Source of the DNA: a virus
Length of the DNA: 21,225 nucleotides
Reading direction: 5' to 3' (one strand)
Virus record (IMG/VR): IMGVR_UViG_3300025030_000453
Span: 1-21,225 of that record
Below, in pieces: positions 2,033 to 21,225 of this stretch. The position numbers were made by a program, and so were the translations under genes. The stretch's first letter is position 1; every line of letters starts with the position of its first letter. The notes under the pieces are model-generated. The model was not told the origin of the DNA, did not search any database, and saw nothing but the letters and a program-made list of their open reading frames with translations.

Positions 2033-2677
2033 TTAAAACACCTTCAAAGCTTTGAGCGTGGCGACATTGCCGATGCTGCTACCGATATTTCCCCACATCT
2101 GAGCTTGGGCCTGACCGGATGCTAGGGCCGCGCCTGCTGCCGCCTGACCTTGTTGCGTCAGAGCGTTGCCGATGTTTGCGCCAGTCTGCTGAGCTGCTGC
2201 GGCTTGGCCTGCGGCCGATGCCTGGCCGAGACCAGACACCTGACCGAGTTTGCTGAACTGAGACTCGATCAGCTGGCTCAAGAGCTGTGGGCGGAACTGG
2301 GCCAGTGTCGCCTGGACGTTGCCGCCGCGCAGCCCGCCCGTTGCTGAAGCGTTCTGCAAGATGGCGTTCTCGCCCTGCTGCATCATTGAGGTGAACTGCG
2401 GAGATTTTTCAAGCGCCTTGATGGCAGCTGCTTGGGCGTTCCCGCCAGAAAGTCCGAGTAGATCTTGTTGGCCACCAACTGCTGATTCACCGGCGTTGAC
2501 GTAAGGCGCAAGAAGTTTCTGCACCGCGTCAAACTGGCGCCGCTGTTCTGCAATAGATGCCGCACTGGCTTCGGTTTGGGCTCCTGCAGCAGACTCAGCG
2601 GCATCCGACTGGGCATTGCTTGACATGACTCCAGTGATAACAGACCCGGCCACGACAGCCGTTGCAATTCCACTCAT
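2033..2677 (-). CDS. DNA transfer/ejection protein, P22 gp7-like
   Basis: This is a 214-aa, Ala/Gly/Gln/Ser-rich protein with a hydrophobic N-terminus (residues 3-20, VVAGSVITGVMSS). Its central helix has EQRRQFDAVQKLLAPYVNAG, and then GGLRGGNVQATLAQFRPQLL. The GLRGGN...LAQFRP...LLSQLI signature is characteristic of the gp7-like DNA transfer proteins of podoviruses and their prophages. P22 gp7 is 229 aa, a comparable length. Family members sit inside the virion and are ejected into the host envelope with the genome. A strong AAGGAG ribosome site precedes the ATG, which overlaps the upstream SET gene stop (ATGA). The order gp7-like, gp20-like, gp16-like matches P22. Confidence 0.82.
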   Translation of the reverse strand: MSGIATAVVAGSVITGVMSSNAQSDAAESAAGAQTEASAASIAEQRRQFDAVQKLLAPYVNAGESAVGGQQDLLGLSGGNAQAAAIKALEKSPQFTSMMQQGENAILQNASATGGLRGGNVQATLAQFRPQLLSQLIESQFSKLGQVSGLGQASAAGQAAAAQQTGANIGNALTQQGQAAAGAALASGQAQAQMWGNIGSSIGNVATLKALKVF

Positions 2678-3540
2678 TTGGTTTCTCCTTCGATTAAATT
2701 GATGCCTGAAAGGGCAAGAGCTTGGCGGTAGTCAACTGTGACTTCCTCACCTTGACTTCCACCAGTGCAACCGGCGATGCGTTGAGTTGCCACAAGCCAA
2801 ATAGTGTCGTCATCATCTTTGACAAACTTGGCATTAGGGGTCTTCGAGTGGTTGGTGTACCTGCCAGCAGGTGTGCGGTGACCTAAGACTCGAGCTGGGG
2901 CAAGTACCTCCCCAACTTCTGCTGGCGAACTGAGGAAGACTCCCAGACCTTCGATGGTGGATGGCCTGACAGTTAACTTGGTGCCAAACCCCTCTGGCAT
3001 GTCAATCTGATCATGTGGGTTTTCAGATTGTGCACGAACAACCTCTGGCGTGAAACCGGCAAGACGAACAACTAGTTCAAAGTCTTCGCGATCTTCGCGG
3101 CGTTGATAGGTCTCAAGTTGCTTGGCGGCTTCAGCATGGGCTTGCCAAGTGGCACTCTTGTCGAGAAACATTGATTCGAGTTTGTCGATGTCACGCTCCT
3201 CGGTGGCGTAGACATTCTGCCAGATGCAGGTCTCAAGCACATAACCAAGTTTTCGACCAGGCTTACCCACAAAGATCATGGGGGCTCGTAGCACCTTGGT
3301 TTGACCATCGTCACCAACCATTGCAACGGCGCCAGTAAGCATGATATTCAGGTGGTCAAATCTCTGCGCGTGGCCAATGGCAAGAGTGCCGGCAGGCAGA
3401 GTAACTTCGCGGATGTAGATACCCGGTCCGAAGTGGTGGACAACTGGGCACTCGACTTGAGGCAGGTCCAAGAGGTGTGATTCAACCTGCTCGATTTTAG
3501 CAGGATCCACAATACTGTGAGATTGAGGCGTAGCCAGCAT
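2674..3540 (-). CDS. Cupin-SET domain fusion, putative protein lysine methyltransferase
   Basis: This 288-aa protein has two domains. Residues about 35-110 look like a cupin barrel: PAGTLAIGHAQRFDHLNIML is followed by the turn-and-strand pattern of a small-molecule-binding beta-barrel. Residues about 188-275 carry the SET hallmarks: GLGVF (198-202), the substrate/SAM motif RYTNHSKTPNA with NHS at 230-232, and GEEVTVDYR (264-272), whose Tyr is the usual catalytic residue. The Cys-rich post-SET motif is absent, as in minimal bacterial and viral SET proteins. SET enzymes transfer methyl from SAM to protein lysines; the target here is unknown. It lies between fibre-like genes and ejection-protein genes, behind its own promoter-like sequence and a strong AAGGAG site 7 nt before ATG. 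Domain identity is fairly sure; enzymatic activity is inferred. Confidence 0.85.
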   Translation of the reverse strand: MLATPQSHSIVDPAKIEQVESHLLDLPQVECPVVHHFGPGIYIREVTLPAGTLAIGHAQRFDHLNIMLTGAVAMVGDDGQTKVLRAPMIFVGKPGRKLGYVLETCIWQNVYATEERDIDKLESMFLDKSATWQAHAEAAKQLETYQRREDREDFELVVRLAGFTPEVVRAQSENPHDQIDMPEGFGTKLTVRPSTIEGLGVFLSSPAEVGEVLAPARVLGHRTPAGRYTNHSKTPNAKFVKDDDDTIWLVATQRIAGCTGGSQGEEVTVDYRQALALSGINLIEGETK

Positions 3541-3626
3541 TCAAACTCTCCTTTTTCAGGGCGGTATGAGCTGCTGGCTGCTCGTTAGGCTCAGCTGCTG
3601 TGGCATCTAGTACCACAGGTGGGCAG

Positions 3627-3657
3627 ATACTAACACGCATCCGACCACCTTGTAAAC
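3627..3657 (-). promoter_or_regulatory. Sigma70-like internal late promoter ahead of the cupin-SET gene
   Basis: The only gap over 100 bp inside the late operon (3541-3659) contains, on the minus strand, GTTTAC (3657-3652) and TAGTAT (3632-3627). This corresponds to a TTTACA -35 box and a -10 box separated by 18 nt. The GTTTAC core is the same as in the four plus-strand promoters of this window, with one extra spacer base. A start near 3620 would give an 80-nt leader before the SET gene. The leader contains a small CTGTGG...CCACAG inverted repeat. This is inferred from sequence only. Confidence 0.5.
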
Positions 3658-3659
3658 TA

Positions 3660-3995
3660 TTAGGTGATCTCTCGTCCTGATGCACTGATAGTGAGGGCTG
3701 TTGCAGCGCTGGCCAATGTGGAGATGAACCCACCAGGTTCCAGCACCTGACCAACAAGCTCTGGACAAGTATAGGCCTCGTTTGGCGCAATGGCCCGAGC
3801 TTTGACCACAAGATTGGAGTCACCGACTGCACCGGCTTCAGGAACAAGGTTGCAGTTGAACGTGGCATTGACAGCGCTTGTGTTTGTTACCGTGAACTTG
3901 TCAATAATGGTCTTGCAGTTCTGGGCGGTGTATTGGGCTGTGTCAGAGGCTTCCGCCTGCTTACGAGGGATAATGTTTTTGACGGTGACGGTCAT
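3660..3995 (-). CDS. Small virion-associated protein, unknown
   Basis: This is a 111-aa protein with no family I recognise with confidence. After a short basic start (MTVTVKNIIPRKQAEASD) it alternates beta-strand-like runs, such as DKFTVTNTSAVNATFNCNL and SNLVVKARAIAPNEAYTCPE, then GG and a Ser/Thr/Ala-rich tail ending TISASGREIT. It looks like a compact all-beta decoration, fibre-associated or head-tail accessory domain. A good AAGGAG ribosome site lies directly upstream and contains the stop of the fibre-like gene, so the two are probably co-translated. It is followed by the gap with the internal promoter. A structural role is inferred from position and fold character only. Confidence 0.7.
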   Translation of the reverse strand: MTVTVKNIIPRKQAEASDTAQYTAQNCKTIIDKFTVTNTSAVNATFNCNLVPEAGAVGDSNLVVKARAIAPNEAYTCPELVGQVLEPGGFISTLASAATALTISASGREIT

Positions 3996-4006: not shown

Positions 4007-5752
4007 TTATGTGACTGATATATCGCTGATTGCTCCAGCAATAAACGTGTGGTAAAGCAGGGCGATGTCAATATTAGTGATGATTGTGCTCGTGAAGGTA
4101 TTGTCAACCGTCACTTGCAAGTAGACGTTTTTAGCGGCATTATCCGATCCAGCATCTTGGGACACAGCCCAAGTAATGGTTGGAGCTGTTCCACCACTTG
4201 CCGCATAGGCCAGGCTTTTTTCAGTACTAGTGACAACAGCAACAGGGGCGGCGGTAGCGGCATCTTGATACCCGCGCGAAATGGCACCTTGCACCTTGCC
4301 GTAAGTCGCTTGCCAATTGCGAGTAGAGGACTGTCGTGACGTCGTTATCACATAGCTGGCCTCAAACCCAACGCTGACATGGTGGCTAAACGCCGTTAAC
4401 TGAGGAATGGTGAACGTGAAGACTGTTGTAAGAGTGTTATCAACAAGAGACAGTGATTTGCTAGACACCCGGCATGGTTTTCCATTGACGGACAATGTCG
4501 TGAATGCCCCAGTATTTGGAGACGAGGCGCCGACAGGTGTTCCATCAATCGACCCGCCATCGATGTTAACAGCAGTGGCATTCTGACCAGCCATTGTGCC
4601 AAGCGTGCCAGCCAGCGCGTTCAACTCAGCTTGTGTGGCCATGTCAACAGCAAAACCAGGGTTTGGGTACGACCCACTGAGCACACCACCAGCCGTGCCT
4701 GTTGGTGCAGCACCAGCCACATCAATTGTAATGGAGCCGTCCGCATTTGTGATGGAGACGTTTGTACCAGCTGTGATGAAGGCAGATTCCCAACGATCCT
4801 GGACAGCGTCGTAAATCAAGATGTTACCAGCTGCAGGAGATACGGCATGGACGTCATCGGAGTCCCCGAGTTTCATACCAACGGACATCCTGACGAAGAT
4901 AGACCCGTTTCCTGTGCCTGTCACAACTACAATGGCCTGAGGTGTCTTCAACTGTGGTGATTCAGGTTGGACATTGGTCAAACCACCTGGAGTGGTTGGG
5001 CTGAAGTAGATCAGGTCTCCGTCAGACCAGACTTCTCCATACGGCGCACCGGTGGTGTTGATGTTTCTGACCAAACCGAAGCTGGTCACGTAGCCAAATT
5101 GGTTCGGCGCAATGTCTTGAGTAGCAATGCCAATCATGAAATGGGCCGGCACAGAACCATCGGCGACGGCCTTGGCAATTGTCAACTTGCCAGAAGCACC
5201 GACCGACCCAGTGGCCATGACTGACTGGCCATTGACAATGGCCACGCCAGACGTGTTCTTGGCGTAGTAGTGCATCTCCTGACCTGCTTGGAGAGTAACT
5301 CCATTGAACAACCCAACATCAATTGTCCCGTCGTCTGAGTTCCACTGGAGTCGGCGCTCCTGCGTGACGTGAGGTCCATCAAGAGGGAAGTCAATATAGT
5401 CAACAGTGACTGCATGGTCTTCGCGCGGCGCAGGAGCTTGGGCAAGGACCTCAAGTGCGCTGGCAATGCGGCTGAGTTCAGCCAAAGCCTGGTTGACCTT
5501 GGTGTCAGTCACAGCCTGGTTGACTTGGTTATCTTGGGCAACTGATGCCAACAGGTCCATGACAAGTTGCGCTTTAGCAGAAGCGCTGTTGGCATCAATG
5601 GAGGCCTCCTGTGACAGCCGTGCCAATGTGGCAACGTCAGCTGGAAGAATATCTCCGACCATAGAGAACAGCTTCTCGAATCGCCGTATGGATTCTTGAT
5701 CTGGCAGGAACTTTGCCAGTTGGTCTCGTGATAGTGGTTTAGGATCTGCCAT
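4007..5752 (-). CDS. Tail fibre/appendage-like structural protein
   Basis: The best start is MADPKPLSRDQLAKFLPDQ at 5752, 2 nt after the gp10-like stop. A longer frame to 5869 would overlap gp10 by 115 nt with an unlikely N-terminus. The product is 581 aa. Residues 1-110 are helical (oligomerising stalk-like, rich in A, L, Q and D). The middle (about 130-310) is a beta-rich domain with YIDFPLDGPH and LQWNSDDGTIDVGLFNG, a type seen in podoviral tail appendages. Around residue 350 comes the collagen-like/fibre linker AGGVLSGSYPNPGFAVD, common in phage fibres. The C-terminal ~170 residues are beta-rich and end IDIALLYHTF followed by a short tail. It lies where P22 has the gp26 needle/gp14 genes. 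It could be the needle or fibre, and receptor specificity cannot be read from sequence. Confidence 0.75.
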   Translation of the reverse strand: MADPKPLSRDQLAKFLPDQESIRRFEKLFSMVGDILPADVATLARLSQEASIDANSASAKAQLVMDLLASVAQDNQVNQAVTDTKVNQALAELSRIASALEVLAQAPAPREDHAVTVDYIDFPLDGPHVTQERRLQWNSDDGTIDVGLFNGVTLQAGQEMHYYAKNTSGVAIVNGQSVMATGSVGASGKLTIAKAVADGSVPAHFMIGIATQDIAPNQFGYVTSFGLVRNINTTGAPYGEVWSDGDLIYFSPTTPGGLTNVQPESPQLKTPQAIVVVTGTGNGSIFVRMSVGMKLGDSDDVHAVSPAAGNILIYDAVQDRWESAFITAGTNVSITNADGSITIDVAGAAPTGTAGGVLSGSYPNPGFAVDMATQAELNALAGTLGTMAGQNATAVNIDGGSIDGTPVGASSPNTGAFTTLSVNGKPCRVSSKSLSLVDNTLTTVFTFTIPQLTAFSHHVSVGFEASYVITTSRQSSTRNWQATYGKVQGAISRGYQDAATAAPVAVVTSTEKSLAYAASGGTAPTITWAVSQDAGSDNAAKNVYLQVTVDNTFTSTIITNIDIALLYHTFIAGAISDISVT

Positions 5753-5754
5753 AG

Positions 5755-7173
5755 TCAATACGCCAAAGGTTCGACGCGTGCCTCTAAGCGCGCAACTGAG
5801 ATGTGTGCTTTGCTTGTACCACGGAAACGTTGGATGCGCCAATTGCGCATATGGCCCTGCTGCAACCAAATGATGCGCTTGTTTCTATCACCGAGTTTCC
5901 CAACTTTCGCCATCTTTTCTTGACTCCATGTCTCACCATCTGCTGAGTATGATGTTGAGATTGTCGGGTCATCGCCAAATGCGACACGGCCAGTCAGGCA
6001 CACGAGCTCAAGCTCATGGAAGATGGCTCCGCGCCCTTCGTTGTAGACGACGATGGTGCCAAACTCCCAGCGCACGTGGTCGCCATAGTGAGATGAGATG
6101 TTCTCGACAAGGTGGCCGTGAGTCGTAGACTGCGTATCGCCGCACAGCCATTTGTCATAGCACCAGACAAGGTTTCGTGCGCGGTATTGACTCCAACCAT
6201 CAAGTGAACTTGTTAAGTGGAACCACACAGGTTCCTCAAGTTCGGCAGACGCCGTCGCATCGTAGACGAGAGTCTGATCTGCAAGATGGATGAACAGGTG
6301 CTGGTGGCCCTTATCTACACGTGCCTCCATGACGATTTGCGACAATTGTGCCTCGGTGTAGGTGGCCAAGATCTGGTCTACTTCGCGCGTGGCAATCTTG
6401 ATGGCTTGCGAGTTTGACCCGATGTAGACAGATGGAGCCTCATTCCTGCCGCCACCAACAAACGCCGCCGCCTCCATGAACATGGCGCATGCATGTGTGC
6501 CAACGCAACCCTTCTGAACCTGGGCTCCATCAATTCGCTGGAACGGAAAGAAGTCGCCACCAATGTTGTCAAACACTTCGATGGTGTACCTGTTCAGTGC
6601 GTAGACTTCATTGCGGATCTTGACGAGGGCTTTGACAGGATCAGGATCGGCTTCAGAGCTTCCGTACTTCAAGGGATTGATGACGAACGGGTTGTTGAGC
6701 TCAGTGACAATGAGGAACTCACCGTCGGTCGTCATGAAGTAGCCATCGACCCAGACAAAGTCGACGACGTAGCCAATGGTTTGGTCTAGGCCCTGGGCAG
6801 CACCAGTGAGACGACGCAGGCGGACCCCGTCGTACAGGTACAACTCGCCAGATGAGGCGATGCCAAGGTAGTCAAATGAATAGTCGAAGGTAACCTGCCC
6901 AGAGCCGCCGACAAAGCCGATTGATTCGTGGGACCCGTCAGAGAGAATCTTGATCAGTTCACCACCCATCACGCGGTAGCAAAAGCCGTTCCAGTTAATG
7001 CCACCACGGTCAACACCAGGACCAATGCCAAATTGGACCAGACCATCTGCCGGGCGGAGGTAACCATTTGAGATGCCCTGCTGCTTAGGCACTGGTACCA
7101 TGTTCACTGGGTACGACGTGCGGAAGTCTGCGACGCCGTCAGTGTAAATGCCGTTGAGGACTGGGATCTGCAT
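5755..7173 (-). CDS. Packaged DNA stabilisation protein, P22 gp10-like (tail hub)
   Basis: The protein is 472 aa, the same length I recall for P22 gp10. Recognisable family segments are PVNMVPVPKQQGISNGYLRP near the N-terminus (P22: PVNMLATPKE...SGYLRS), the central APSVYIGSNSQAIKIATREV, the VYDATAS strand, and near the C-terminus NKRIIWLQQGHMRNWRIQRF. In P22, gp10 forms a hexameric ring below gp4 that plugs the portal so packaged DNA does not leak, and it holds the needle and tailspikes. It follows the gp4-like gene (after a 151-aa ORF), as in P22, and overlaps nothing. The ribosome site (GGGTGGGC) is weak. The call is strong. Confidence 0.93.
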   Translation of the reverse strand: MQIPVLNGIYTDGVADFRTSYPVNMVPVPKQQGISNGYLRPADGLVQFGIGPGVDRGGINWNGFCYRVMGGELIKILSDGSHESIGFVGGSGQVTFDYSFDYLGIASSGELYLYDGVRLRRLTGAAQGLDQTIGYVVDFVWVDGYFMTTDGEFLIVTELNNPFVINPLKYGSSEADPDPVKALVKIRNEVYALNRYTIEVFDNIGGDFFPFQRIDGAQVQKGCVGTHACAMFMEAAAFVGGGRNEAPSVYIGSNSQAIKIATREVDQILATYTEAQLSQIVMEARVDKGHQHLFIHLADQTLVYDATASAELEEPVWFHLTSSLDGWSQYRARNLVWCYDKWLCGDTQSTTHGHLVENISSHYGDHVRWEFGTIVVYNEGRGAIFHELELVCLTGRVAFGDDPTISTSYSADGETWSQEKMAKVGKLGDRNKRIIWLQQGHMRNWRIQRFRGTSKAHISVARLEARVEPLAY

Positions 7174-19105: not shown

Positions 19106-19256
19106 TCGTTACCTCTACACCTGGGTCGACTGGGTCAAGGAGATTCTGGGCTGGGGCTTTGGTCTGATCGCTGGGTTCATCCTGCTGCCAGTCCTGGGCT
19201 TCATCCTGAAGCTCCTCTGGGTCTTCTTCATGGTCGGTTGGGACTTGATCAAATGA
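19095..19256 (+). CDS. 53-aa small membrane protein
   Basis: Starts MKRSRYLYTWVDWVKEILGW with ATG at 19095, in a frame different from the DUF3310 gene it overlaps. Residues about 17-50 hold a long hydrophobic stretch (WGFGLIAGFILLPVLGFILK, then LLWVFFMVGW), long enough for one kinked or two short transmembrane helices, after a basic N-terminus. No signal peptidase site is obvious. Possible roles are a membrane-acting host modulator, superinfection-exclusion factor or lysis-related protein, but I see no family signature. Its stop overlaps the start of the J-domain gene (ATGA). Confidence 0.75.
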   Translation: MKRSRYLYTWVDWVKEILGWGFGLIAGFILLPVLGFILKLLWVFFMVGWDLIK

Positions 19257-19531
19257 GCAAAGCTTTCGCGACTCTGGGCCTTCCTGATACCGTGACGCCT
19301 GACGAGGTCAAGGCGAAGTGGCGGGAACTCTGCATGATTCATCACCCAGACCGCGGAGGCAACTCCGTGGAGTTCAACACGATCCGCAAGGCCTACAAGC
19401 AGGCGTTTGCTGAAGCCAGCGAGCCCAAGCCATGTGTTCCATGCAATGGCAGCGGCAAGGTCAAGGTCAACAGCGGTTGGTCATCGATCGATATGCCATG
19501 CCAAGCATGTGGAGGTTCTGGTCATGGCTAA
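19253..19531 (+). CDS. Mini J-domain protein with C4 zinc knuckle
   Basis: A 92-aa protein with ATG at 19253, overlapping the previous stop. Residues 1-57 form a J domain: helix II with TPDEVKAKWRELCMIHHPDRGG and the invariant HPD at 31-33, then NTIRKAYKQAFAE. The C-terminal part has CVPCNGSGK (Cys61, Cys64) and CQACGGSG (Cys83, Cys86), i.e. two CxxCxGxG-like halves that can bind one zinc, as in DnaJ's zinc-finger. No substrate-binding domain is present. J proteins stimulate Hsp70 ATPase, so it may divert host DnaK, for example to assembly or replication complexes. The domain call is firm; the partner is inferred. Confidence 0.9.
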   Translation: MSKAFATLGLPDTVTPDEVKAKWRELCMIHHPDRGGNSVEFNTIRKAYKQAFAEASEPKPCVPCNGSGKVKVNSGWSSIDMPCQACGGSGHG

Positions 19532-20984: not shown

Positions 20985-21225
20985 ATGAAGATTGAAATCA
21001 AATGCCGGTTCAGCGGCAGCGTTTTGTTCTCACACGAAGCTGAGGATAACTCGATGAAGCTGACCTTAGAGGCTGCGGTCTCTGCCCGTGCCAACCTGGA
21101 CGGTGCCAACCTGGTCCGTGCCAACCTGTACGGTGCCAACCTGGACGGTGCCAACCTGGACGGTGCCAACCTGGACGGTGCCAACCTGGACGGTGCCAAC
21201 CTGGACGGTGCCAACCTGGACGGTG
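20985..21225 (+). CDS. Pentapeptide-repeat protein, N-terminal part (runs off right edge)
   Basis: ATG 20985 has GAGG 5 nt upstream. The first ~33 residues are beta-rich and charged ([20 protein letters not shown]). From Ala36 the protein becomes a pentapeptide repeat of form ANLxx: [15 protein letters not shown] and then six identical ANLDG to the edge, nine visible units. Such repeats form a right-handed quadrilateral beta helix; some members mimic B-form DNA and inhibit or protect gyrase (Qnr/MfpA types), but many have unknown functions. It has its own promoter P4. The true length and C-terminus are outside the window, so a role cannot be set. Confidence 0.85.
21090..21225 (+). repeat. 15-bp tandem repeat array inside the pentapeptide gene
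   Basis: The unit GCCAACCTGGACGGT repeats six times without a mismatch at 21135-21224, after three less perfect units from 21090. The array continues to the last base of the window. Perfect DNA identity exceeds what protein conservation needs and points to recent unit expansion or exchange. Confidence 0.95.

Follow-up and report, generated by a model that had tools for sequence, protein, structure and literature searches.

The SET fold is best known from eukaryotic histone enzymes, and a gene predicted to encode a SET domain within the virion operon of a phage raises the question of what such a domain would do there. The window analysed here is the whole 21,225-nucleotide stretch (IMG/VR virus record IMGVR_UViG_3300025030_000453, positions 1 to 21,225); this 21.2-kb virus fragment, from a short-tailed phage, carries a P22-type morphogenesis operon on its minus strand, on which all features below lie unless marked (+). 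The operon encodes a terminase large subunit, portal, scaffold, coat, gp4-like adaptor and gp10-like nozzle, together with a fibre-like protein, a 111-aa protein, a cupin-SET fusion and two ejection proteins, the first of them gp7-like. The fusion gene (2674-3540) is a complete ORF with an ATG start in the ORF list and is assigned through Pfam and PHROG profiles and 47 relatives. Its 288-aa product, matched over its whole length by PHROG 34170 (E 2e-90), comprises, from the N terminus, a cupin barrel (residues ~14-130), then a bundle of helices (131-185) and finally a SET domain (186-276). Elsewhere in the record, 15-nt tandem repeats at 21058-21225 (+) read A-N-L-x-G/R and belong to a pentapeptide-repeat protein truncated by the record end, and a short protein encoded at 19238-19531 (+), possibly a mini-DnaJ, has an HPD motif like that of J-domains and, after it, zinc-finger-like CxxCxGxG pairs.

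The original prediction placed the fusion in a virion operon between fibre-like and ejection-protein genes, and this setting holds with one amendment. Upstream lie the genes for the tail nozzle/head-closure protein Hc3 (P22 gp10; 5755-7173, PF11134, E 2.5e-43) and for a weakly classified fibre-like protein (4007-5752; PHROG 28023, E 7e-4, and position), but an additional gene encoding the 111-aa protein (3660-3995; ORF list and PHROG search), which is also found 5' of the cupin in near relatives, intervenes on the fibre side. Downstream are a P22 gp7-like DNA ejection protein (2033-2677; PF25688, E 1e-10) and a second ejection protein annotated as 'released from the phage upon host infection' (735-2030; PHROG 2534, E 2e-31). 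The ATG of the gp7-like gene shares the sequence ATGA with the stop codon of the fusion gene, which suggests that the two are translationally coupled; overlaps of this type with the gp7-like gene are present in 45 of 100 SET-positive loci.

The DNA upstream of the fusion gene contains a putative sigma-70-like promoter (3627-3656, read from 3656 to 3627; TTTACA-18-TAGTAT, 9/12) that is kept in near relatives. The late promoter claimed for this gene is therefore present as a sequence match, and its function as a promoter is putative. Closer to the start codon is a conserved 30-nt element, AGCTGAGCCNNNNGAGCAGCCAGCAGCTCA (3567-3596), recognised by its conservation in relatives and retained even where their proteins share only ~65% identity. 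The element preserves the reading frame AEPxExPAAH; a small gene was ruled out by a start codon that is inconsistent among relatives, and an RNA hairpin by an insignificant z of -1.2.

Several independent searches identify residues 186-276 (2713-2985) as a mini-SET domain. Pfam PF00856 matches residues 221-271 with 24.9 bits against a curated cut-off of 22.4 (E 2.9e-5), and a second search independently gave the same position. Compared with solved structures, a profile of 22 relatives matched the SET domains of MLL1/MLL2 (E 4e-8) and PBCV-1 vSET (E 9e-4), with EZH2 also among the matches; a second profile, built from 54 SET cassettes, matched more strongly still (MLL1/MLL2, E 4.5e-13; vSET, E 2e-9). 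Structure prediction against the SET fold, which had been proposed as a check, gave a confident AlphaFold model (50 SET cassettes; pLDDT 95, pTM 0.88) for which Foldseek returned EZH2, MLL1 and vSET, each with probability 1.00.

The catalytic motifs are where they had first been noted: GLGVF at residues 198-202 (2935-2949), part of the SAM site; TNHSKTPN at 229-236, containing motif III NHSKTPN at 230-236 (2833-2853); and motif IV GEEVTVDY at 264-271 (2728-2751), which ends in the catalytic-type Tyr271. Among the matches listed, S194, G198, G200, T223, N230, H231, E266 and Y271 are invariant in 81/81 non-redundant phage relatives (<80% pairwise identity), a count in which T223, N230 and H231 were partly preselected by the search pattern and the other five were not; P235 is kept in 79/81 and N236 in 80/81. 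The Asn and Tyr, whose loss in close homologues would have spoken against a SET enzyme, are thus both retained throughout. A chance match to SET motifs is excluded because relatives occur on 47 independent viral contigs, 41 of which also encode the SET domain, and is ruled out as well by the invariant residues and the confident model.

The core had also been described as complete-looking, which is true of the catalytic motifs and not of the whole fold, as most of SET-I is missing. In the profile alignment SET-I is shortened to 7 residues versus 41 in MLL2, and in a stand-alone relative it has 12 residues versus 34 in vSET. SET-I of characterised enzymes contributes to peptide binding, and its length differs among SET proteins; we therefore regard the loss as a variant and not as grounds for exclusion from the family. 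It follows that the peptide groove and one active-site aromatic are either absent or supplied from elsewhere. Judged from sequence, the domain retains the SAM site and Tyr, with the usual peptide groove trimmed.

The N-terminal half supports the cupin-like domain that had been claimed, although with a different meaning. The domain (residues 14-130; 3151-3501) was delimited with PHROG, AlphaFold, Foldseek and invariant columns, the last including an invariant signature, ECPVVHHFGPG, at residues 30-40. A beta-barrel is modelled by AlphaFold at residues 41-112, and KdgF and other cupins are among the top Foldseek matches (probability 1.00); a Pfam search of the protein matched no cupin model. When the metal motif G(X)5HXH(X)3-4E(X)6G is compared, H57 is invariant, the second His is Gln here and His63 stands at the place of Glu, with His57 and His63 conserved or nearly so in 22 aligned relatives. 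The profile matches are to PHROG 12032 (E 6e-32) and PHROG 24280 (E 1.3e-25), both 'short tail fiber / tail adhesin' families, a label that is a database annotation, and homologous cupins without SET are encoded by Bordetella phage BPP-1 (bbp23), by Vibrio, Shewanella and Dickeya phages and by a T7-like Sphaerotilus phage. The closest kin being tail proteins, the suggestion that the cupin senses a metabolite is disfavoured, and the domain is best read, from these relationships, as tail-structural.

Gene position agrees with this reading. In P22-like, BPP-1-like and T7-like phages the cupin slot is constant, directly ahead of the gp7/gp14-like gene, and in most loci the downstream neighbour encodes a small Ala/Gly-rich gp7-like protein; P22 gp7 and T7 gp14 have been equated as ejection proteins (PMC8954989). 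A slot after the nozzle and ahead of the ejection genes argues for a role of the cupin in the tail or its assembly. Conservation in a broad cupin alignment was too low for scanning, and a search for published virion proteomics of phages P26218 and X14 found none.

Between the two domains lies a helical segment (residues 131-185; 2986-3150), whose second part (DREDF...DQI) recurs ahead of stand-alone phage SETs; PHROG 34170 aligns with these from about profile position 155 onward. Because most stand-alone SETs carry it, the segment belongs to the SET cassette. The cassette and the cupin combine in more than one arrangement. The 121 distinct SET cores among the matches listed comprise 110 cupin-SET fusions, five reversed SET-cupin fusions (L123, L224, L226-L228), one split pair in which a SET gene adjoins a cupin gene (L136, 240-1277) and five stand-alone domains; as the searches were seeded with the cupin-SET family, these counts are uninformative on its share among all phages. 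Two of the cupin-less SETs lie immediately 3' of portal-like genes (L126, L132), the portal being called by size and order. In another type of phage, stand-alone mini-SETs were also observed 3' of long, repetitive genes that resemble tail genes (L130, 4781-5194; L134, 5872-6264). On a tree of 191 cupins, built from few columns and with many unresolved forks, the presence of SET requires nine changes, at least six of which are forced by well-supported branches.

The same architecture, which the original prediction proposed to seek in other phages, is thus widespread there: relatives of the fusion are numerous in freshwater and other metagenomes, and the pattern scan of relatives gave at least 464. 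A search for prophage copies in genomes found just two metagenome bins, each with a phage contig: L217 (DYMC01000001.1), labelled Lentisphaera sp., and L218 (JAJYTY010000013.1), labelled Proteobacteria bacterium. These bacterial labels are likely binning errors. A plasmid search gave no SET match and matches to the cupin only.

We favour, with moderate confidence, the interpretation that the fusion is a virion-assembly enzyme in which a tail cupin anchors the mini-SET so that it methylates lysines on neighbouring virion proteins during assembly. The protein would be a late product of the tail operon, coupled with the gp7-type ejection protein; its cupin would be a tail-associated structural module holding the mini-SET by fusion, the mini-SET would act as a SAM-dependent protein methyltransferase, and lysines of tail, nozzle or ejection proteins, or of the protein itself, would be methylated in the cytoplasm. 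The analysis establishes the fold, the conservation of its motifs, the gene slot and the recurrence of the fusion, whereas catalysis, particle location, substrate and timing are inferred. The cytoplasm contains SAM, which makes methylation during assembly likelier than methylation after ejection. Taken together with the late tail operon and the tethering of SET to a tail module, this makes methylation of virion proteins the simplest mechanism.

A candidate substrate was sought by lysine conservation. Position K128 of the cupin is Lys in 67% of SET-positive versus 9% of SET-negative cupins, a difference confounded by relatedness, and was ruled out as a substrate call on that account. In the gp7-type proteins of SET-positive phages the search gave no clear target; their lysine content is 2.1% versus 3.2% in SET-negative phages, which is likely a lineage effect.

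The position of the gene could also be taken to mean that the enzyme is aimed at the host. A protein with a tail-family cupin and a constant place beside ejection-protein genes might plausibly be packaged, enter the cell with the ejection proteins and methylate a host protein early in infection. We regard this as improbable: a cupin on the tail exterior would remain outside the cell, where it would be without SAM, and both the fusion to a tail module and the stand-alone SETs beside portal-like genes indicate particle proteins and not a host target. Aims such as blocking a defence or redirecting metabolism, as examples of what such an effector might achieve, are correspondingly unlikely.

The shortened fold raises the opposite doubt, that the domain transfers no methyl group at all and either only binds SAM or serves as a structural beta-fold appendage of the tail. 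SET and some structural proteins have the beta-clip fold in common, and a domain lacking most of SET-I would fit such a role. However, for a structural part it is unexpected that GxG, the NH pair and the catalytic Tyr stay invariant among the matches listed (81/81), and the domain is gained and lost, reversed and split as an enzyme cassette behaves, so that we give this explanation little weight. It is similarly doubtful that the enzyme is active on something other than lysine side chains of particle proteins, for instance an N-terminal amine, a different residue or a small amine that the cupin binds. An active site left open without SET-I could admit other substrates, small ligands are common in cupins, and conservation of His57 and His63 is full or nearly full across the 22 aligned relatives, but this cupin has its nearest kin among tail proteins, and the segment conserved most strongly in it, ECPVVHHFGPG, precedes the barrel and therefore resembles an attachment site more than a ligand site.

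The assembly interpretation might extend beyond SET. In 77 of the 81 BPP-1-clade loci (L050, L137-L216) a GNAT acetyltransferase gene lies upstream of the cupin, mostly directly adjacent. A phage-like cluster on a Massilia violaceinigra plasmid (L300, 5439-6306) contains a tail-type cupin gene whose start overlaps a gene for an Asp/Asn beta-hydroxylase, and a T7 gp13-family (PF11090) gene is directly 5' of one tail cupin (L275). No GNAT was found among 49 upstream neighbours outside the BPP-1 clade, nearly all of SET-negative cupins, and only one among 50 upstream neighbours of SET-positive cupins; beyond the GNAT, hydroxylase and gp13 cases, neighbours of SET-negative cupins included no common enzyme. 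Protein-modifying enzymes beside the tail cupin are thus suggestive of a pattern that is not general. We propose, tentatively, that the interval from the nozzle gene to the outer-membrane ejection-protein gene is a 'modification slot', in which the cupin recruits interchangeable modifying enzymes whose targets would be tail or ejection proteins in the course of assembly. That the mini-SET methyltransferase, the GNAT acetyltransferase and occasionally an Asp/Asn hydroxylase occupy one such slot is conceivable, though we would not call it likely. Post-translational modification would, if the slot exists, be a regular step of podovirus tail building.

Work on SET methyltransferases has dealt almost entirely with their role in chromatin. 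If the tail-operon SET family is what it appears to be, many phages methylate protein lysines for assembly or infection, and such methylation may have been overlooked by virion structures and proteomics. The analysis offers a testable function for an 'unknown' PHROG and for the cupin 'short tail fibre' proteins of P22-, BPP-1- and T7-like phages, and the shortened SET may reveal the minimum fold sufficient for catalysis. The open-access literature searched held no description of the cupin-SET family, the tail-cupin link or the loss of SET-I, and nothing on SET proteins in phages or cupins in podophage tails; an 'I-set domain' match was unrelated to SET. The SET assignment is not unprecedented, since single deposits already carry such names: one relative has a vSET-derived name, and BFVD A0A6J5PTS6 is deposited as 'SET domain containing'. 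PHROG 34170 contains the same two-domain protein at full length, including gp30 of the freshwater isolate Rhodoferax phage P26218 (E 3e-168) and Pseudoalteromonas phage PH1 ANY29560 (E 3e-155), under an entry that reads 'unknown function' and is silent on SET, the tail-cupin nature and the modular history.

Among characterised SET proteins, the best sequence and fold matches are MLL/KMT2 and EZH2, which have identical catalytic residues but, unlike the phage mini-SET, a full SET-I, accessory domains and eukaryotic histone substrates. PBCV-1 vSET (PDB 1n3j/3kma), a minimal chlorovirus SET lysine methyltransferase, is likewise viral and compact, with GxG, NHSxxPN and GEE...Y, and differs from the phage fusion in its longer SET-I and in having no cupin. 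The target of vSET is host histone H3K27, for which we know of no counterpart for a bacterial phage. On the side of the tail, Bordetella phage BPP-1 bbp23 ('short tail fiber protein', PHROG 12032) is a homologous cupin in a slot adjoining a small gp7/gp14-like protein; it has no SET, and the gene ahead of it is bbp24, of the GNAT family. In T7, gp13 (internal virion protein A, PF11090) lies between the nozzle gp12 and the ejection protein gp14 (PMC4517105, PMC4925675), the same slot as that of the phage cupin-SET gene, a likeness of gene position.
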